A stretch of DNA of 10,628 nucleotides from Planctomycetia bacterium. GTDB taxonomy: Bacteria > Planctomycetota > Phycisphaerae > Phycisphaerales > SM1A02. The position numbers and the translations under genes are program-made. The notes under the pieces are model-generated. The model ran no database searches. It saw only the letters and a list, made by a program, of their open reading frames with translations, and had not been told where the DNA came from. Of the stretch, positions 1-10,628 are shown in pieces (the first letter of the stretch is position 1; each line of letters begins with the position of its first letter). The stretch spans positions 1 through 10,628 of the forward strand of contig JAACEA010000219.1 in NCBI GenBank assembly GCA_009936695.1, written 5' to 3'.

Positions 1-513
1 CAGGGAGTCGCGATCGCGGGTGACGGTCAGGTCACGCTGGGCGACGTCGTGGCGAAATCGTCCGCCTGCAAGATCCGTCGCATCCCCGAGGTGGGCGCGG
101 AACGTCGCGGCGTGCTCGCCGGCTTCGCGGGTGGTGCCGCGGATGCCTTCGCGCTGCTCGAGCGGTTCGAAGCCAAGCTGAAGGGATCGCCGGTCAATCT
201 CTTGAAGGCGGCCGCGGAACTCGCGCGAGACTGGCGGACCGATCGGGCCCTGCGACGGCTGGAGGCGATGATGATCGTGGCGGATCTCGAACGCACGCTC
301 GTGGTCAGCGGTCAGGGGGATCTCATCGAGCCGGACGACGGCGTCGCGGCGATCGGATCCGGAGGCAATCATGCCCTGGCCGCGGCCCGGGCCCTCCGGC
401 GCTGCACCGACCTCGGGCCGGCCGAGGTCTGTCGGGCGTCGATGACCATCGCGGGCGAGCTTTGCATCTACACCAACACCGAGATCTCACTCGAGGAGAT
501 CGTCGTCGCCTGA
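1..513 (+). CDS. hslV: HslV, ATP-dependent protease peptidase subunit (5' partial)
   Basis: Peptidase subunit of the HslVU (ClpYQ) cytoplasmic protease, a threonine-type proteasome relative that forms a double-ring core capped by the HslU unfoldase. Frame 1 is open from the first base and aligns along its whole length with the E. coli HslV I remember: [67 protein letters not shown]. The first visible residue corresponds to about residue 10 of the mature enzyme, so the start codon, any propeptide and catalytic Thr1 lie upstream. The active-site Lys33 equivalent is present in SACKIRR (window residue 24). The GTG at 49 is internal, not the start. HslU usually follows hslV directly; here the next gene is a convergent one, overlapping the last 27 bp. 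Identity is secure; whether the enzyme is active cannot be judged without the N-terminus. Confidence 0.95.
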
Positions 514-780
514 CGTCGTCTCGGAACGCGTGCCCGTCTGTCGATACGTCGCACGCCGGGCGGCGTAGGACTCGGGCGAGATCGGCAGATCGATCGTCTC
601 GCCCGCCTGCTTCATGGCGTGGAGCTTTCGAAGGAACGGCACGCACCACTGGCAACCGGTCCCCGCGCCGAGGCAGTCGGCGAGCCGACTCGCGACCGGC
701 GGGTCCTCGCGGTTCAGGAACGTCCGCACCTTGCGAAGGCTGACGCGAAAGCAGAGGCAGACGTGGTCATCCGGATCCAT
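487..780 (-). CDS. BFD-like [2Fe-2S]-binding protein
   Basis: A 97-residue protein whose first half resembles the bacterioferritin-associated ferredoxin (BFD-like) [2Fe-2S] fold. It has a C-x-C pair near the N-terminus (C8, C10 in HVCLCF) and a C-x2-C pair (C43, C46 in [10 protein letters not shown]) some 33 residues later, followed by a helix. A fifth cysteine, C36, sits between the pairs. BFD-type domains pass electrons to bacterioferritin to release iron, or act as cluster-binding modules in larger proteins; this is a stand-alone version. Residues 60-97 form a polar, probably disordered tail not expected in classical Bfd (about 64 residues). The ATG at 780-778 has a strong GAGGAG site 5 nt upstream (complement of 786-791). 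It lies 44 bp downstream of the leftward gene ending at 825, so the two are probably co-transcribed. Its 3' end overlaps hslV by 27 bp. The cluster assignment is good; the partner is unknown. Confidence 0.82.
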
Positions 781-1842: not shown

Positions 1843-3642
1843 ATGACCGAGATCCAGAGCCTTATCCGAAGCGCCACCCGCCGGCTGACCCTGGCTCGCT
1901 TTCTCGAGACGCTCGCCGGGGGGGCCGTGATCGGTCTCGCCGTGCTGATGCTGTGGGCGCTCGCGACGAAGGCCGTTCCAGCGCTGGCGTCGCCATGGTG
2001 GATCCCGGCGTCCGTGACGGCTGGCCTGGTCTTGCTGCTCGCACTCGCGCGGGCCCTCGGTCCCGGTCGGGATCCCGTGTCGGTCGCCATCGCGATCGAC
2101 CAGCGGCTGGGCCTCGACGATCGACTGAGCACGGCCGTCCAGATTTCGGATCGGGACGATCCCTTCGCCGTCGCGGCGATCGCGGATGCCGCGGCCGCCG
2201 CGCAACGCCCCGACGTCCGGGGCCGGGTCGCACAGGCGTTCCGTCCGACGCCGCCGCGTGGCTGGTGGGTCTCGCCGATGCTTCTCCTCTTCGTGGTCGG
2301 GGTCTGGACGATCGTGCCGCAGGGGGATCTCTTCGGAAGCGTGCCGACGCAAGACGACACCGTCCTCGCGGAGGCCAACCAGCAGGTGGAGTCCGAGGTC
2401 GAGGAACTGATCGCGATCATCGACGAGAACGAGATGCTCGCGACGGAGATGGAAGGCACGCTGGAGGAAATGCTGGGTGGGCTGGAGGATAGCGACAAGC
2501 CCGAAGAGGCGCGGACTCCCGAAGAGGTGAAGCGGGAGGCCATCCGCCAGGTGACGGCGCTGCAGGATCGTCTGCAGGAGATCCTCGAGGGCGAGGATGC
2601 CCGGATGGACGCGACCCTTCGGGAGTCGCTTGCGGACCTGAAGAACGACGGTTCCGGTGACGCTGACGCGGACGAACTCGCGGAGGCGCTCGCGAAGGGG
2701 GACTTCAAGCAGGCGAAGGAGGCGTTCGAGCGTCTCGCGGAGCGCATGGAGTCCGGCGACATGTCGCCCGAGGAGGCGGAAGCCCTGAAGGCCGCGCTGG
2801 AGGATCTCGCACGGCAGCTGGAGGAAGCCGCCGACAAGCGGAAGGACCTCGAGGATGCGTTGAAGAACGCCGGGCTCGATCCCGATCTGGCGAAGAATCC
2901 CGAAGCGCTGGAGCAGGCGATCCAGAACGCATCGAATCTGAATGAGTCGCAGAAACAGGCGCTCCAGGAAGCCGCCAAGGCCCAGCAGCAGGCGTCCCAG
3001 GCGATGCAGCAGATGTCGCAGGCCATGCAGCAGATGGCGGAGGGCCAGTCGGAGGGGCAGCAGCAGGGCCAGGAGATGTTGAGCGAGATGGAACGCATGC
3101 AACAGATGCTCCAGCAGGCCCAGGCCGCGTCCGGACAGTGCCAGGGCGCCTGCGAGAAGATGGGGCAGGGGCTCTCCCAGTGGGCACAGAATCTCGCGCA
3201 GGGACAGGCCCAGAGCAGTTCGGAGGGCCAGGGCCAGGGCCAGGGTCAGGGTCAGGGCCAGGGTCAGGGTCAGGGGATGGGGGGCCGCGGTCAGGGCCAG
3301 GGTGGCCAGGCGCCGATCGCGCCAACGCCGACCGGAACCCAGATGCAGCGTGAAAAGGTCGAGAAGCGCGAGGGCGACATCATTGCGCGGGAGATGATCG
3401 AAGGCGAACCGGTGGTCGGCGAATCGAAGGCCCGGCTGCAGCGGATCTCCGATCGAATCGAACGCGGGTTCGAGGAAGGCCTTCGGGAGGATCCGATCCC
3501 GCCGCATCTTCGTGACGTCCATCAGCACTACTTCGGCGAGCTGAAGAAGCGAATCGACGCCGTGCCGAAGGGCGCGCCGGAAGAGAAGGCTCCGGCATCG
3601 CCCGCCGAGCCCGCGAAGGAAACCAAGCCCGAGGGGTCGTGA
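1843..3642 (+). CDS. DUF4175-like membrane-anchored coiled-coil protein with Gly-Gln run
   Basis: A 599-residue protein with two hydrophobic segments at about 24-41 and 52-69 and a third at about 142-162 (SPMLLLFVVGVWTIVP). Between them is a soluble stretch with DPVSVAIAIDQRLGLDDRLSTA. After the third segment about 430 residues follow that are strongly helical and charged (many E/K/R/A/L, heptad-like), then a Q/M-rich part (AMQQMSQAMQQMAEGQ), a dipeptide run of GQ at about 462-477 and a charged tail. This layout matches proteins annotated DUF4175 or 'planctomycetal hypothetical', whose function is not known to me. With three TM segments the coiled coil should be on the opposite side of the membrane from the N-terminus, most likely the periplasm. 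Two cysteines (SGQCQGACEK) lie in that part. First gene of the rightward operon; its TGA overlaps a GTG of the next gene. It may be a scaffold for the downstream VWA and MoxR proteins, but that is inference. Length is shorter than the roughly 800 residues I recall for alphaproteobacterial DUF4175 proteins. Confidence 0.85.
   Translation: MTEIQSLIRSATRRLTLARFLETLAGGAVIGLAVLMLWALATKAVPALASPWWIPASVTAGLVLLLALARALGPGRDPVSVAIAIDQRLGLDDRLSTAVQISDRDDPFAVAAIADAAAAAQRPDVRGRVAQAFRPTPPRGWWVSPMLLLFVVGVWTIVPQGDLFGSVPTQDDTVLAEANQQVESEVEELIAIIDENEMLATEMEGTLEEMLGGLEDSDKPEEARTPEEVKREAIRQVTALQDRLQEILEGEDARMDATLRESLADLKNDGSGDADADELAEALAKGDFKQAKEAFERLAERMESGDMSPEEAEALKAALEDLARQLEEAADKRKDLEDALKNAGLDPDLAKNPEALEQAIQNASNLNESQKQALQEAAKAQQQASQAMQQMSQAMQQMAEGQSEGQQQGQEMLSEMERMQQMLQQAQAASGQCQGACEKMGQGLSQWAQNLAQGQAQSSSEGQGQGQGQGQGQGQGQGMGGRGQGQGGQAPIAPTPTGTQMQREKVEKREGDIIAREMIEGEPVVGESKARLQRISDRIERGFEEGLREDPIPPHLRDVHQHYFGELKKRIDAVPKGAPEEKAPASPAEPAKETKPEGS
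3225..3275 (+). repeat. Hexanucleotide tandem repeat coding for (Gly-Gln)8
   Basis: About eight tandem copies of GGYCAG, with the third base varying between C and T, encode a Gly-Gln run inside the coiled-coil protein. A degenerate copy (GGTCAGGGCCAG) follows at about 3289-3300. As the unit is a multiple of three, copy-number changes would alter length without a frameshift. Confidence 0.85.
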
Positions 3643-3644
3643 GG
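3641..3644 (+). promoter_or_regulatory. Shine-Dalgarno site deciding the start of the binding-protein gene
   Basis: GAGG lies 9 nt before ATG 3654 but only 3 nt before ATG 3648. This favours 3654. The GTG at 3639, which overlaps the upstream stop, has only GAGGGG 2 nt away. Confidence 0.4.
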
Positions 3645-3653
3645 CGCATGCGG

Positions 3654-4823
3654 ATGACGCGTTCGTTCCACCCGACGCGCCGTTGGGTGGCGTCGATGGT
3701 GGCGCTCCTCGGCCTCGCGTCGGGAGCCGCTCTTTCGGGCTGCGAATCCCGATCAACGCAGCCGGTGGTCGCCTACATCTCGGTCGACGAGCAGATCGCG
3801 AGGCCGGTTCTGGCGGCGTTCACGGCACGCACCGGAATTCCCGTCAAGCCCCTCTTCGACACCGAGGCCACGAAGACGACCGCACTGGCGAGCCGTCTGC
3901 GTCGTGAAGCGGGTCGCCCGAGAGCGGATCTCTTCTGGAGCTCGGCGCCCTTCGAGGTGGAACGGCTCGCGACCGAGGAGATCCTCGTTCCCGCAGTCCA
4001 TCCGGAACTCGATGCCCACCCCGTCCGCTGGCGTCGGCCCGACGGTCGATGGTTCGCGTTCGCGGGTCGGGCGCGAGTGATCGTGTACGACCCGGAGGTG
4101 CTCGCTCCCTCCGAGGCGCCGACGCGGTGGACCGCGCTGGTCGAACCCAGGTTCCGGGATCGCGTCGTGATGGCGGATCCCCGCTTCGGCACGACGCGCG
4201 GGCACCTGGGGGCGATGGCCGTCTTCTGGAACCGGACCGCGATGCCCGGGTACTTCGACGCATGGCTCGACGGCCTCGCCGAGAACGGGGTGCGGATGCT
4301 CCCCGGTGGGAATGCAGCCACGGTGGACGCGGTGGTTCGCGGTGAGGCGCTCGTGGGGATGACCGACACCGATGATGTCGTGGCGGCGCAGCGCCGCGGA
4401 TTGCGGGTGGCGGCATCGATCCCTCGACACGGGCTGCCGGGAGAGAAGAATGCCGGCACGCTCGTCATTCCGAACGCGGCGGGGCTCGTCGGTGGTGGAT
4501 CCAACCCCGACGGCGCGACCCGTCTTCTCGCGTTTCTCGCCTCCGAAGAAGTCGAGCGGATGCTGTATGAGTCCGCCTCGCGCAACCTTCCGCTGGCGCA
4601 TCCGACGATCGAGATCGATCCGACGTTGCGGGTGGAGGAACCGCTTGCGGTGGCGATCCCCGAAGTCGCGACGGCGATGGATGCCGCAGTGGATCGAGCG
4701 ATGCGACGACTCGATCCCGAGCGGATCCGACGGCTTCGGGCGCCCGGGCCCGGTCGCTCGATCGGCGGCGCAGATCCATACGACGCGTCGGAAGGCGTCT
4801 CCGAGACGGGGCCCGATTCTTGA
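3654..4823 (+). CDS. Lipoprotein substrate-binding protein, Fe(III)-type ABC family
   Basis: A 389-residue extracellular solute-binding protein of the FbpA/AfuA-like family, which delivers ligand to an inner-membrane permease. The N-terminus is a lipoprotein signal: basic region, hydrophobic VASMVALLGLASG, lipobox LSGC with the lipidated Cys at about residue 30. The mature part starts VVAYISVDEQIARPVLAAF, then TGIPVKPLFDTEATKTTALASRL and RADLFWSS, a pattern I associate with a subfamily annotated as iron(III)-binding. GNAATVDAVVRGEALVGMTDTDD follows. In classical FbpA the iron-coordinating tyrosine pair lies about there; here the residues are Asp-Asp (240, 241), so iron as ligand is not assured. 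The C-terminal 40 residues are Arg/Pro/Gly-rich and look unstructured. Three starts are possible (GTG 3639, ATG 3648, ATG 3654); I prefer 3654 for Shine-Dalgarno spacing. The stop overlaps the TTG start of the permease, implying coupled translation. Confidence 0.88.
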   Translation: MTRSFHPTRRWVASMVALLGLASGAALSGCESRSTQPVVAYISVDEQIARPVLAAFTARTGIPVKPLFDTEATKTTALASRLRREAGRPRADLFWSSAPFEVERLATEEILVPAVHPELDAHPVRWRRPDGRWFAFAGRARVIVYDPEVLAPSEAPTRWTALVEPRFRDRVVMADPRFGTTRGHLGAMAVFWNRTAMPGYFDAWLDGLAENGVRMLPGGNAATVDAVVRGEALVGMTDTDDVVAAQRRGLRVAASIPRHGLPGEKNAGTLVIPNAAGLVGGGSNPDGATRLLAFLASEEVERMLYESASRNLPLAHPTIEIDPTLRVEEPLAVAIPEVATAMDAAVDRAMRRLDPERIRRLRAPGPGRSIGGADPYDASEGVSETGPDS

Positions 4824-7267
4824 TCCGCGGCCTTCGATGGCTGGCGACGATCTGGTGCGGCCTGGTGATCGTGCTGCTCGTGCCGACGCTGGTGGTTCCG
4901 GGCGCGATCGCGGTCGCCGGAGCGGCCACGTCGCCTGCGGAGATGGGATTCGACCCGGGACGGGTGATCATCGTCTCGGCCACCTGGTCGGCGGGCATCC
5001 CGACGCTCGCCGTGCTTCTCGGCTGGGGGCCCGGACCGTTCCTGGCAAGATCCGGAGCGCGTTGGGCGATGCTCGCGAGTCTGGTGCCGTTGGTGGTGCC
5101 GCCTTCACTCTTCTTCGACGCCTGGTGGCTCGAGACCGGGCCCGACGGCCCGATCGGTCGGGCCGCGGCGGTCGCCGGTGCGGTCCCGCGGCTGCGGGCG
5201 GCGGTGCTCGCGGTCGGACTGGCCTGCGTGGCCTGGCCGATCGTCGCCTGGTGCGTCGCGATCCGCGGTGTCGGACGTGACGATCAACTGTTGGAGCTCG
5301 ATCGGCCTCGTCTTCGGGATCGTCTTCGGGCGTCTCTTCGCCGGGACTGGAAGGTGCTGCTCCTCGGTTGGTCGATCACCTTCGCATGGGTCGCGTCGTT
5401 GACCGTCCCGTTCGACCTCGCGCAGGTCTCCTCGTGGGGCTTCGAGTTGCGGACCCTCGATGCCCGGGGCGCGACGCCGGCCACCGTGCTGCGAGCCGGT
5501 GTGCCGGCCCTGGTGCCCGCGATCATCGCGGGGATCTTGATCGCCTTCATGACGGGGCGCCGCGACGGGCCGGTCGTCCGCGCCTGCGTCGCCGCCCGGG
5601 GCGGCGTCTGGATGTGCGTCGTGGTGGTGTTGCTGGTCCTGCTTCCGCTCGGATTCCTGCTTCGTCGCGCGGCCTCCGCCGACGTCGGCACGACTTTCGA
5701 GGTCCACGGGGCCGCGATCGGCAACACCTTCCTGGTCTTCCTCGTGGCGGGCCTGATCGGCGGCGTGCTGGCCGCGGGAATCGCGGCCATCGGTCGCGAT
5801 CGACGGGGTCGGACCGTCGCCCGGATCGCGGTCCTCGGCTTCGCGGTGGTGCTTCTTCTTCCCGCGACGCTCGTCGCGGTCGGCGTCGAGGCGACCTGGA
5901 ATCACGCGATCGTCGGATGGGTCTACGACGCACCTCTCGGGATGCTCCTCGGGGTGACCGGGCGGGTGGGGCTCGTCGCGTGTCTCGTCGGCGTGGTCGT
6001 CGGTCGACGGATTCCCCCGGTCTTCGAGGCGGACGCGCCCCGACGGATGATCGACGTCCTGCGTGGACTCGCGCCGACGCTCCGGCGGGCCTCGATCGTG
6101 GGCGGTCTCGCGACCGGCGCGATGGCGGCGGGCGAGATCCCGGTCACGGCGCGGATCCAGCCTCCGGGCTTTCCCACCGTGACGTCCGCGCTGCTCAACG
6201 CGATGCACTACCAGTACGTGGATTCGGTGCTTCCGGCCGTCTTCGGTCTCGTGGCGCTGGCCCTGGTCGCGGCGGTCCTGCTCGCGTCGCTCGGCGCGGT
6301 CCCTCGCCTCCGCGGCGTCGTGGTCCGAGTGGTGCCGGCGTTCGTCGCGACGCTTCCGATCCTCGTCTTCGGGTGTTCGGACCGCGGGGATGGGGAAGGC
6401 GTTCGTCCGGTGCCCTCCGCGGTGGTGTTCGGACGGGCCGGGAACATCGACGGACGATTCGATTACCCGCGTGCGATCGGGCTCGATGCGGAGCGAGGTC
6501 GGATCTACGTGGTGGACAAGACGGCCCGGGTCCAGCGATTCGATCTCGAGGGGGTGTTCGAGCGATCCTGGGCGATGCCGCGTTCCGAGAACGGGAAGCC
6601 CACGGGGGTCACGATCGACGGGGACGGTCGAGTCGTGGTGGCGGACACCCACGAGCATCGAATCGCGATCTTCTCGCCGGACGGCGAGTTGCTCGAGACG
6701 TTCGGTGAGTACGGTGAGGGGCCCGGGCAGTTCATTTATCCGACGGACGTGGCGATCGCCTCCGACGGGACCTGGTTCGTCTCCGAATACGGGGGCAACG
6801 ACCGGGTCCAGCTCTTCGATTCGGACCGCCGCCCCATCGGCTCGATCGGCTTCATGGGACACGACGACGAAGGCGATTCTCCGGGACTGCTTCGGCCCCA
6901 GTCGATCGCGTGGGACGACGAGGCGGGGGAGCTCTACATCGCGGACGCCGTGAATCATCGAATCGTGGTGACCGATCGGGCGGGGAGGATGCGACGGGTG
7001 CTGGGGGGCGCGGGTGACGCGCCGGGGCGGCTCGCCTACCCCTACGGGATCGCGCTCGACGGCGAACGCAGCCTGATCGTGGCGGAGTATGGAAACAATC
7101 GAGTCCAGCGACTGGACCGACTCGACGGCGAATGTCTCGGGGTCTGGGGTGGTGCGGGAATCGAAGCGGGGCGACTTCGGTATCCTTGGGGCGTCGACGC
7201 CGGGGGTGGGATGATGGCGGTGCTGGATTCCGGCAACGATCGAGTCCAGGTCGGAGAACTGCCGTGA
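4820..7267 (+). CDS. Fe(III)-type ABC permease fused to an NHL beta-propeller
   Basis: An 815-residue two-part protein. Residues 1-500 have about twelve hydrophobic segments, the size and layout of FbpB-type permeases, which are two fused TMD halves. The second half has the recognisable GEIPVTARIQPPGFPTVTSALLNAM followed by a last TM (VFGLVALALVAAVLL), like the 'ELPATLLLRPPGF' region of Fe(III) permeases. The EAA loops that dock to the ATPase look degenerate. Residues about 530-815 are a six-blade NHL propeller, with blade starts YPRAIGLD, KPTGVTID, YPTDVAIA, RPQSIAWD, YPYGIALD and YPWGVDAG. Such propellers bind proteins or ligands and are often extracytoplasmic. The two parts are joined by RLRGVVVRVVPAFVATLPILVFGC, which looks like a lipoprotein signal peptide (separate entry). 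There is no stop or frame change between the parts. The start is TTG, overlapping the previous stop (TTGA); the next in-frame start, GTG 4865, would cut into TM1. No ABC ATPase gene follows. Ligand unknown. Confidence 0.85.
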   Translation: MIRGLRWLATIWCGLVIVLLVPTLVVPGAIAVAGAATSPAEMGFDPGRVIIVSATWSAGIPTLAVLLGWGPGPFLARSGARWAMLASLVPLVVPPSLFFDAWWLETGPDGPIGRAAAVAGAVPRLRAAVLAVGLACVAWPIVAWCVAIRGVGRDDQLLELDRPRLRDRLRASLRRDWKVLLLGWSITFAWVASLTVPFDLAQVSSWGFELRTLDARGATPATVLRAGVPALVPAIIAGILIAFMTGRRDGPVVRACVAARGGVWMCVVVVLLVLLPLGFLLRRAASADVGTTFEVHGAAIGNTFLVFLVAGLIGGVLAAGIAAIGRDRRGRTVARIAVLGFAVVLLLPATLVAVGVEATWNHAIVGWVYDAPLGMLLGVTGRVGLVACLVGVVVGRRIPPVFEADAPRRMIDVLRGLAPTLRRASIVGGLATGAMAAGEIPVTARIQPPGFPTVTSALLNAMHYQYVDSVLPAVFGLVALALVAAVLLASLGAVPRLRGVVVRVVPAFVATLPILVFGCSDRGDGEGVRPVPSAVVFGRAGNIDGRFDYPRAIGLDAERGRIYVVDKTARVQRFDLEGVFERSWAMPRSENGKPTGVTIDGDGRVVVADTHEHRIAIFSPDGELLETFGEYGEGPGQFIYPTDVAIASDGTWFVSEYGGNDRVQLFDSDRRPIGSIGFMGHDDEGDSPGLLRPQSIAWDDEAGELYIADAVNHRIVVTDRAGRMRRVLGGAGDAPGRLAYPYGIALDGERSLIVAEYGNNRVQRLDRLDGECLGVWGGAGIEAGRLRYPWGVDAGGGMMAVLDSGNDRVQVGELP
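6320..6376 (+). other. Embedded lipoprotein-like signal peptide at the fusion junction
   Basis: In frame within the permease-propeller gene, residues 501-519 carry a basic region (RLRGVVVR just upstream and into it), a hydrophobic core VVPAFVATLPIL and VFGC, then SD and a Gly/Asp-rich linker leading to the first NHL blade. This is the makeup of a type II signal peptide; -3 Val and -1 Gly fit the lipobox, -2 Phe is atypical. GTG codons at 6320, 6329 and 6332 could serve as starts of a separate lipoprotein, but I see no Shine-Dalgarno sequence before them. It may instead act as a thirteenth TM that places the propeller in the periplasm. Confidence 0.55.
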
Positions 7268-7315: not shown

Positions 7316-10312
7316 ATGTTCGCTGACCTGCCCATCCAATTCGAGCATCCGGTGATGCTGCTGGTGCTCCTGTTGATCGTGCCGATCATCCTGCTCGCCC
7401 GGATGGGTGCGGCGGGTCAGGGACGGGGCAAGCTCATCGGCTCCGTCGTGGTCCGCACGATCCTGATCCTCCTGCTCGCGGTCTCGCTCGCCCGTCCGTC
7501 GGTCGTCGATCGAGGCGAGAGCGTGACGCTCATGGTCATCGCGGACGTGAGTCGGTCGATCCCACGGGAACTTCAACGGCAGAGTGGTCGCTTCCTCGAA
7601 CGCGTGGCCGATGCCAAGCGCAACGAGGAGGATCGGATCGGGGTGGTCACGGTCGCCGAGGAGTCGGAGATCCGCCAGACGCCCGACATGAACGCGGTGA
7701 TCCAGCTCGATCACGCCGGGGACCTCGCGGCGACGGATCTCGCGGGGGCGATGCGCACCGCGATCTCACTGCTTCCGACCGATACCGCGAATCGGATCCT
7801 GCTCGTCTCCGACGGCAACGAGACCGAGTCGAACCTCCTGGAAGCGGTGGAGCTTGCGCGGGCCAACGGCATCCCGGTGGACGTGCTCCCCATCGAATAC
7901 GAGTACGGCAGCGAAATCGTCTTCGAGCAGCTGCGGGCGCCGAATCGCGCGAGGATCGGGCAGTCCGTGGATCTCCGGGCGTTCCTGCGTTCATCGTCCG
8001 AGACGACCGGGGTGCTCCGAGTGTTTCAGAACGACGCGTTGATCGATCTCGATCCGGGTTCGACCGCCGACGGGATCCGCATCGAGCTCGAGCCGGGATC
8101 GAACACCGTTTCGATTCCGGTCACCCTCGAGTCCGGCGGCGCCCAGCGTTTTCGTGCCGAATTCTCGCCCGACGATCCCGACTCGGATGCGATCCTCGAG
8201 AACAACGTCTACGAGTCGGTGACCTTCGTCGCGTCCGACGGCCGCGCGCTGGTGATCGACGAAGGCGGGACCGAGACCACGGCGCTGGTGTCCGCCCTGC
8301 GGACCGGCGGCGTCGAGGTCGTCGTCGAACCGCCGTCGAGCCTGCTCGGCGGCATCGCGTACCTCAACGGTTTCGACACCGTGATCCTCGCCAACGTTCC
8401 ACGATGGTCGATCGATCAGGACGCGGACCGAAGCCTCCGCTCCTACGTCCACGATCTCGGCGGCGGACTCGTGATGATCGGTGGGGACGAGGGCTTCGGT
8501 GCCGGGGGCTGGATCGAATCCGAGACGGCCAAGGTGCTGCCGGTCCGACTCGATCCGCCGCAGGAGCGGCAGATGGTTCGCGGTGCGCTCGCCCTGATCA
8601 TGCACTCCTGCGAAATGGCGAAGGGGAACTACTGGGGGCAGCAGACCGCGATCGCGGCGATCGACGCCCTCAGCAGCCTCGACTACGTCGGCATCGTGAC
8701 CTTCAACTGGGGCCAGGGTGGTCAGGGCATCAACGGCTGCTCGTGGGCCTTTCCGATGCAACCCGCCGGCGACAAGTCCGCGGCGATCGCCGCGGCGAAG
8801 AAGATGGTCATCGGCGACATGCCCGACTTCGGCGCCTCCATGACGCTCTCGCGTCAGGGACTGAACGGGGTGAACGCGGGGCAGAAGCACGTGATCATCA
8901 TCTCGGACGGTGATGCGGTGCCGCCCAGCAAGACCTTGCTCGACCAATACGTCGCCGATGGCATCACCGTCACCACGGTGATGGTCGGCGGGCACGGCAC
9001 CCCCAAGGACCGCGAGAACATGCAGGGGGTCGCCGAGTTCACCGGCGGGACCTTCTACAACGTCACCAATCCGAAGATGCTTCCGAAGATCTTCATCAAG
9101 GAGGCGACGCTGGTCACCCGGACGCTTCTGATGGAGGGCGACTTCCGGCCGTCCGTCGCTCCGACCCTCGACGGTCCCACCCGTGGGGTCGGATCGGTGC
9201 CGGGCATCGGTGGTTTCGTGCTCACCGTCCCGAAGGAGGGGCTCGTGAAGATCCCCATGGTGGTTCCGACGGAGGAAGGCGAGGATCCTCTCCTCGCCTA
9301 CTGGAACTACGGGCTCGGCAAGAGCGTGGCCTTCACCAGCGATGCCGGAGGGCGATGGAGCACGACCTGGCCGGCCTGGGGTGGATTCCAGCCGTTCTGG
9401 GAGCAGATCGTCCGCTGGTCGATGCGTCCCTCTTCGCCGCCGAACCTCATGATTCGCGCCAGCACCGGCGAGAACGGGCGCGCGGTGGTCGAGGTCGAGG
9501 CGATGGCCGCCGACGGCGGAATGGCGAACTTCCTACAGGGACAGGCCCGGGTCATCGACCCGACGGGCGCTTCGGCCCCGGCGCCGCTGCAGCAGATCGG
9601 TCCGGGTCGGTACCGCACCGAATTCGATCTCGAGAAACAGGGGGCGTACCTCGTCAACGTCCTGTTCCCGGAAGGTGACGGAGAAGCGCGAGCCGCGGCG
9701 AGCATCCAGGCCGCGATCAGCGTGCCCTACGAACGGGAATTCTCCACCGTCCGGGACAATCGGGCGCTTCTGGAGTCGATCGCGGCGAAGACCGGCGGCA
9801 CCGTGTTCGGTCCCTCCACCGATTTCGAGATCGTCGACCCCTTCGATCGGGCGGGACTGGACATGCCGTCCTCGCCGACCCGGATCTGGGATCTTCTGGT
9901 GGTGGTCGCCGCCGGACTCTTCGTCGTCGACGTCGCGGTGCGACGGCTCACCTTCGATTCGCGGGCGGCCCGCGAGGCGGCGACGAAGGCCATGGCGCGC
10001 GGGACCAGCACCGCGGATTCGACCGTCGAAGCCTGGAAGACGGCGCGGAAGCGTGCCGGTCGCGGCCGCCGGGGTGCATCGGACGCCGCGACGCGGTTCG
10101 AAGCCGACGAGACCGTCGACGGGAACTTCTCCGTGAGCGACGACCTTTCGACCGCCGAGCGGACGAACGACGGGACCCGCCCGCCTCGACGAGAACGCTC
10201 GAATGAAGCGTCGACGACGTCGGACGAGGAGGCGGAGGACATGACCAGTCGGCTGCTTCGGGCCAAACGACGGGCCCGGGGTGGCGGAGACGACGGAGCC
10301 ACCGATGGGTGA
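7316..10312 (+). CDS. Large membrane VWA protein with two VWA domains and an amidotransferase-like domain
   Basis: A 998-residue inner-membrane protein. Order of parts: TM segments at about 13-28 and 41-59 (BatA-like N-terminus); VWA domain 1 at about 71-190 with an intact MIDAS start D77-V-S79-R-S81 and [10 protein letters not shown]; a beta-rich region at about 200-300; a GATase1-like domain at about 306-418 ([31 protein letters not shown]); VWA domain 2 at about 422-600, whose MIDAS position reads IMHSCEM (430-434) instead of D-x-S-x-S while [11 protein letters not shown] is kept; a region with [18 protein letters not shown] and [11 protein letters not shown]; a final TM at about 857-877; and a charged, probably disordered tail of about 120 residues ending [13 protein letters not shown]. 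The GATase-like domain has no evident catalytic Cys. ATG 7316 has AGGAG 9 nt upstream. It starts 48 bp after the permease and overlaps the MoxR gene by 8 bp. VWA proteins paired with MoxR are typical partners in assembly or metal insertion; substrate unknown. Confidence 0.9.
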
Positions 10313-10628
10313 ATTCGCGGAAGGCATGCGAACCCGTCTCGACGACGTGGAAACGGTGCAACGGGCCTGTGAACGCTTTCGTGGGGCCTTCGCCGCGCTG
10401 CGGGAACGGGTCGGGCTTCGCATCGTGGGGCAGGAGGCGGTGGTCGATCAGGCCTTGATCGCGCTCTTCGCCGGTGGGCACGTGCTGCTTGAAGGAGTCC
10501 CCGGGCTCGGGAAGACCCTCCTCGTCAGGACCCTCGCGGATTCGCTCGGGCTCGAGTTCAATCGCATCCAGTTCACGCCGGACCTGATGCCCGCGGACGT
10601 CACCGGGACCACGATCGTCGTCGAGGAC
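10305..10628 (+). CDS. MoxR-family AAA+ ATPase (3' partial)
   Basis: The N-terminal 108 residues of a MoxR-type AAA+ ATPase, open to the end of the window. Residues 36-58 ([23 protein letters not shown]) are the usual MoxR lead-in. [13 protein letters not shown] contains the Walker A motif, G64-x4-G69-K70-T71, and [16 protein letters not shown] (about 87-102) is a hallmark of the family. Walker B, sensor and arginine-finger regions lie outside. MoxR proteins act as ATP-driven chaperones in the cytoplasm, working with VWA proteins to mature or activate protein complexes. The ATG at 10305 has GGAG 6 nt upstream and overlaps the VWA gene's end by 8 bp, so translation is probably coupled and the two products likely work together. 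A DUF58 gene often follows in related operons; this cannot be seen here. Confidence 0.95.

Follow-up and report, generated by a model that had tools for sequence, protein, structure and literature searches.

The window studied here is a 10,628-nucleotide stretch of DNA (contig JAACEA010000219.1) from a planctomycete of the class Phycisphaerae, and the gene in question (4820..7267, + strand) encodes an ATP-binding cassette (ABC) importer permease and an NHL beta-propeller in one continuous frame. Our analyses suggested that this gene may encode a polyprotein whose propeller is a lipoprotein, and that its permease probably no longer belongs to an importer with its own motor. The features of the gene are as follows.

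4820..6292, + strand: FbpB-type (ferric importer) permease half, residues 1-491, with about 12 membrane helices
6017..6055, + strand: C-half cytoplasmic loop, the expected site of the ATPase-docking EAA motif, which is degenerate
6305..6373, + strand: internal lipoprotein signal, with a basic n-region (R496-R503) and an uncharged 15-residue h-region (504-518)
6374..6376, + strand: the lipobox cysteine, Cys519
6377..6412, + strand: variable linker C-terminal to Cys519
6413..7264 (stop 7265-7267), + strand: six-blade NHL beta-propeller, residues 532-815

An earlier note on this DNA had read the frame as a Fe(III)-type permease joined to a six-blade NHL propeller, and both homology and fold confirmed that reading. 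Profile searches against the PDB and Foldseek showed that homology to FbpB-type (type I) ABC importer permeases spans the full membrane domain, and the C-terminal domain had both NHL repeats and a six-blade fold. The Pfam search gave no match to PF00528 in the window permease at E<=1, and this family was matched in at most one of 56 relatives of the window protein (25 of 32 families listed). The ten PF00528 places in the window's own genome do not include the fusion gene. A relative of family f4 in genome G051 does reach the PF00528 cut-off, at 26.4 bits.

The fusion was found in all seven other genomes of the window's genus. A protein search returned 47 matches, 44 of which (P0002-P0045) cross the junction at 34-99% identity; among them P0002, from another source, is 99% identical over its full length. 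That search scored 8000 candidates and only proteins of 0.55-1.75 times the query length, so that split forms were under-seen. Named records came closest at 84% and at 55-57% identity; these are metagenome-assembled genomes (MAGs) labelled mostly Phycisphaerae, Phycisphaerales or Phycisphaera; they include MED708, TMED9, ANT-54 and CPC83, the last of which carries the label Planctomycetaceae.

Gene neighborhoods were examined at 20 + 19 places and on one own contig, and then in two sets of 40 places drawn from 108 and 236 matched genomes, respectively. These places were picked by score, frame length and permease matches, and the proportions given here are therefore not population estimates; all counts cover related rows that share descent, on contigs that are often truncated. 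Among 79 permease rows of the window's class, 57 were propeller-fused, 11 had a separate propeller gene at the same locus, ten were unlinked and one was cut by a contig end. The class permease tree, a quick tree with Shimodaira-Hasegawa-like approximate likelihood ratio test (SH-aLRT) support only, held at least seven changes between fused and split states, which is a minimum count. Together, these data indicated a widespread fusion that has arisen or come apart on several occasions. The earlier note's question of recurrence in related genomes was thus answered by the seven congeneric genomes and by 57 of the 68 class loci that carry both parts.

Several unusual arrangements were also observed. 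In family f4 (L043, L051, L175 and L176) the fusion is a lone gene, and in G051 this gene lies directly upstream of the elongation factor P gene. At L032:7260-9704 (genome G030) an 814-residue protein with Rax2 and DUF5122 matches and a small gene, on the opposite strand, separate the permease from the propeller. L195 is a permease-propeller fusion outside the class with its permease in two frames, and the permease matches at G307:C5:804075-805754 and G302:C126:18777-20345 were each reported with two in-frame stops.

The fusion gene belongs to an operon whose recurring order in the class is COIL, substrate-binding protein (SBP), permease/propeller, VWA, MoxR, DUF58 and BatA. In the window, its neighbors are the following.

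1843..3642, + strand: membrane and coiled-coil protein, here called COIL, which opens the conserved operon; its start was set by comparison with relatives
3639..4823, + strand: SBP, FbpA/PhnS-like (PF13343), with a lipobox-like N-terminus by reading
7316..10312, + strand: protein of about 1000 residues with VWA and GATase1-like domains
10281..10628, + strand: MoxR AAA+ ATPase, truncated by the contig end

The end of the SBP gene overlaps the start of the permease-propeller gene by TTGA. Home-made hidden Markov models (HMMs), run on the fetched loci, detected COIL at 54, SBP at 56, VWA at 58 and MoxR at 52 of the 68 class loci with permease and propeller, several of which end early at contig ends. 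MoxR, DUF58 and BatA/VWA genes stand together in relatives; the window contig stops inside MoxR. Further upstream, the window holds a fragment of a proteasome-fold peptidase (1-513; PF00227, E 2e-11), HslV-like by reading and truncated by the contig start, and, at 487-780 (- strand), a gene whose product of about 100 residues has a BFD-like [2Fe-2S] domain; this gene lies divergently near the operon in many f1 relatives. The BFD-like protein of the relative L037 matched PF04324 with E 1.5e-5 and 25.7 bits, below the cut-off of 26 bits, and its gene near the operon is a possible link to iron.

The ligand of the SBP was considered separately. Its best PDB match was the iron-binding protein 4elo (E 3.4e-18), and it reads DTDDV where the ferric-binding chain of 4elo reads NHYYV, the tyrosines of which we take to bind iron. 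With DTDDV in that place, iron is not assured as the ligand. NCBIfam models for 2-aminoethylphosphonate SBPs also matched the window SBP, below their cut-offs.

No ABC ATPase match was found inside the operon at any of the 68 class loci, as far as the contigs reach, with an HMM built from 12 ATPases of the window's own genome (E<=1e-6). Matches outside the operon were present at L046, L144 and L151. The L144 match lies in an SBP-permease-ATPase trio without a propeller (L144:1937-5609), directly upstream of a motor-less propeller operon.

The EAA motif is the part of such permeases that contacts the ATPase (PMC3150292 and PMC7658222). A strict E-A-A in the C-half was present in only one of the 68 propeller-linked class permeases, and at this site four residues are missing in all eight genomes of the window's genus. 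By comparison, a strict EAA was seen in seven of the ten readable ATPase-linked permeases, eight of them outside the class and two inside. Outside the class the motif was strict in six of eight (L191, L192, L193, L194, L208 and L229) and one residue off in L200 and L221; of the two class permeases, both without a propeller, L138 had a strict EAA and L144 did not. The motif of L196, which is cut, was not readable; the stretch of L229 carries an ATPase without a propeller; and ATPase-linked permeases below 60 bits (L203, L217, L220 and L226) were left out of the count. Two of the ten class permeases without a linked propeller had a strict EAA (L138 and L134), and most of the remaining eight also had no ATPase match on the fetched stretch. 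Because the rows are related by descent, the relation between EAA state and ATPase linkage is a correlation and not an independent count. The absence of an ATPase gene from the operon, together with the decayed docking motif, indicated that the fusion permease probably does not belong to an ordinary ATP-driven importer equipped with a motor of its own.

Loss of pumping is therefore supported by a missing gene and a decayed motif, and its rival is an ordinary importer served by a shared ATPase in trans (MsmX-like), with the propeller as an added periplasmic domain. Shared ATPases of this kind are documented (PMC7658222), and candidates for the role were present: ATPases that score >300 bits with the FbpC-like profile A3, and have no PF00528 match close by, were found in seven of seven genomes checked. 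In the window's own genome (G000), two of the 30 ATPase loci examined reached 295 and 265 bits against a comparable profile, and they sit on short contigs without a PF00528 match. Such ATPases could act in trans, and the retention of the SBP at 56 of the 68 loci also fits real transport. However, the EAA motif is not strict in 67 of 68 permeases and is partly deleted in the window's genus, whereas most readable ATPase-linked relatives retain it, and for these reasons we consider the trans-ATPase explanation unlikely, albeit one to be taken seriously.

Outside the class the propeller was followed through other genomic settings and was present in 37 of the 40 places fetched elsewhere in the phylum. 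A permease match was obtained at 13 of these 37 propeller loci, which is a lower bound, since class members supplied the permease HMM and more distant permeases escape it. At 24 of the 37 a VWA gene lay on the strand of the propeller frame and no more than 500 bases away from it, three of the rest being at contig edges, and at some loci (e.g., L198, L201 and L213) the propeller adjoins a VWA gene without a detected permease. The propeller seems to accompany VWA/MoxR more steadily than it does the transporter. At eight loci (L191-L194, L196, L200, L208 and L221) an ABC ATPase gene stands between the permease and a separate propeller, and in L202, L203, L217, L218, L223 (family f49) and L224 (f101) the ATPase and propeller share one frame. 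All six of these fusions had an internal lipobox and a hydrophobic stretch between ATPase and propeller.

The junction of the window protein has the same character. Cys519 was invariant, in 56 of 56 sequences of the relatives' alignment and in 57 of 57 fused class loci, while cysteine made up 1.4% (52 of 3670 residues) of the flanking linker in the fused loci, and the linker was variable apart from the lipobox. The residue before the cysteine was G in 50, S in four and A in three of the 57 loci, in all of which the 11 residues N-terminal of the cysteine were uncharged. In 32 genome-derived fusions the uncharged stretch was 12-21 residues long (median 16), and the 12 residues before it contained 2-5 K/R and 0-1 D/E. 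A basic n-region, an h-region and a [GAS]-Cys lipobox, the components of a lipoprotein signal, are thus all present, and in the window this signal (residues 496-519) is internal and not at the N-terminus of the gene product. The class lipobox count was taken from the alignment, as the automatic lipobox filter missed rows through thresholds or domain borders. By visual reading, a signal peptide with a lipobox stands at the start of every one of the 11 split class propellers, and in one split locus (L035) the permease and propeller genes overlap by ATGA. Of the enzymes that would process such a signal, LspA was present in six of the eight genomes of the genus, including the window's own G000, and Lgt in seven of the eight. 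That the lipobox is a conserved feature is nearly certain. With an invariant lipobox cysteine at the junction, the propeller is most likely a lipoprotein, signal peptidase II is likely to cleave before Cys519, and the propeller may in this way be cut free of the permease.

The same junction could belong to a stable two-domain protein, in which helix 495-516 is a 13th membrane anchor and Cys519 is either lipidated without cleavage or not lipidated. The fusion is kept in 57 of the 68 loci, and the predicted structure does have a helix at 495-516; however, the confidence of that helix is about 50, the hydrophobic stretch is short, the linker is variable save for the lipobox, and split genes arise repeatedly. 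We rate this explanation as rather unlikely. A third explanation, which appears quite improbable to us, is that most of the propeller is produced as a separate lipoprotein, translated from an in-frame start close to the n-region. An in-frame ATG, GTG or TTG lies 12-45 codons before the cysteine in 30 of 32 fusions, and the ATGA overlap of L035 is in keeping with this, but an ATG is found there in only 15 of 32, a start with a 4-base Shine-Dalgarno-like match in three of 32, and there would then be no force keeping the frames joined in 57 of 68 loci. An assembly or sequencing artefact, to which the origin of the window as a single contig of a 592-contig MAG might point, was rejected because the fusion recurs in the congeneric genomes and at the class loci, and because an almost identical protein came from a different source.

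On balance, we lean toward a polyprotein combined with a motor-less scaffold, and the data suggest that a transport complex has been rebuilt into part of another cell-envelope machine. We propose that the gene encodes a 12-helix FbpB-type permease running into the signal peptide of an NHL-propeller lipoprotein. With 12 helices and the N-terminus inside, the chain would be left in the cytoplasm, and the short signal helix would carry the propeller across the membrane. Lgt would lipidate Cys519, and signal peptidase II (LspA) would probably cleave the chain just before that residue, giving a permease and a membrane-anchored propeller in a 1:1 ratio. The ancestor was most likely a complete SBP-permease-ATPase importer beside a propeller gene in a VWA/MoxR/DUF58/BatA operon. 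The ATPase gene would then have been lost from the class operon, leaving the permease and propeller genes as neighbors that fused (or split) repeatedly, and the ATPase-docking loops would have decayed in the window's class. Pumping by the SBP and permease with an ATPase of their own has probably ceased, and the two most likely serve as a membrane scaffold that responds to ligand and displays the propeller to MoxR-driven VWA/BatA proteins. A receptor role of this type would have a loose precedent in GlnH-GlnX. The sequences themselves show the fusion, the homologies, the conserved lipobox, the synteny, the lack of an ATPase gene in the operon and the EAA decay, and from these we infer the direction of evolution, lipidation, cleavage, the end of pumping and the role as receptor or scaffold. 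The wider proposition, that Planctomycetes possess lipoprotein polyproteins in which signal peptidase II frees a propeller from either of two unrelated partners upstream of it, a polytopic permease or a cytosolic ABC ATPase, and that a Phycisphaerae importer is now a ligand-gated MoxR/VWA scaffold, is offered tentatively and with some doubt.

Several observations, in addition to the candidate trans ATPases and the retained SBP, weigh against this proposal. In 14 of the 32 fusions an F or P occupies position -2, unlike in the textbook lipobox. Among the eight genus genomes searched, LspA was not found in G003 or in the 97% complete G007, and the search for Lgt was negative in G000 (88% complete), the MAG of the window itself. 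Outside the class, nine of 30 separate propellers (L193, L194, L201, L209, L213, L214, L216, L221 and L222) had no clear lipobox on the printed stretch, three of which (L193, L194 and L221) are ATPase-linked, and lipidation is therefore not universal in the wider family. The automatic filter found none in 11 of the 30, with L205 showing a lipobox by eye and L211 ending at a contig edge. An E-x-[AGS] is retained in 12 of 68 permeases, no SBP, VWA or MoxR accompanies the fusion at the four family-f4 loci, and at L220 and L226 the propeller precedes an SBP, a weak permease match and an ATPase, which does not fit a simple story.

Of the interpretation first given for this DNA, the two domains stood, as did the link to VWA/MoxR partners, with VWA on 58 of 68 class loci and within 500 bases at 24 of 37 outside. 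The plain periplasmic tether gave way to a lipoprotein signal with an invariant lipobox cysteine, and the permease probably lacks a motor of its own. Capture of a ligand for the permease is not the general role of the propeller, because elsewhere the propeller is separate or fused to the ATPase.

These loci provide natural replicates of one lipoprotein in fused and split form and with exchanged partners. They make testable the processing by Lgt and LspA of a lipobox inside a polytopic or cytosolic protein, as well as the loss of the ATPase from an ABC importer that keeps a conserved role, and they connect MoxR-DUF58-BatA/VWA operons with a binding protein, a membrane scaffold and a periplasmic propeller. 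An internal lipobox between a permease or ATPase and a propeller, together with motor loss, was not found described in searches of the open-access literature, mostly at the level of titles and abstract openings.

Compared with the ferric iron importer FbpBC (PDB 9j4r, Thermus thermophilus), the window protein has an additional C-terminal lipoprotein propeller and a decayed EAA motif, and its operon differs in lacking an ATPase gene and in having an SBP with DTDDV instead of the NHYYV of 4elo. The NHL propellers of TRIM71, Thin and the PknD extracellular domain differ from that of the window, which has a lipoprotein signal and a bacterial operon context and is not part of a kinase or ubiquitin ligase. 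The cytochrome b/c1 precursor FbcH of Bradyrhizobium is a polytopic protein and a periplasmic domain made as one chain and cut at an internal signal by signal peptidase I; the window protein has a lipobox, and would hence be a substrate of signal peptidase II. MoxR-DUF58-BatA/VWA operons share with the relatives studied here the conserved order of MoxR (AAA_3), DUF58 and BatA/VWA, in front of which the relatives have an extra coiled-coil protein, SBP and permease-propeller.

The beta-propeller MoxR-vWA ternary conflict systems (Kaur et al. 2020, PMC7159879), in which the vWA protein itself carries the propeller, are similar in that a single locus combines MoxR, vWA and a propeller. The bpMoxR (PF20030) cut-off of 27 bits was passed in two relatives, L037 and L045 (scores of 49.8 and 39.2 bits), and the contig-cut MoxR fragment of the window reached 27 of 27 bits. 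For the L037 MoxR, the match to AAA_3 (E 1.7e-62) was much stronger than that to bpMoxR (E 3e-13). Despite the two scores above cut-off, membership in these systems was rejected by architecture, since the propeller here is carried by a permease, behind a lipoprotein signal, and not by the vWA protein. In GlnH-GlnX-PknG, a binding lipoprotein and a membrane protein form a sensor and not an importer (PMC9769921), but GlnX is a receptor-like protein with four transmembrane helices, unlike the importer-type permease of the window. The parts of the window system are thus known individually, and their combination was not encountered in the literature searched.

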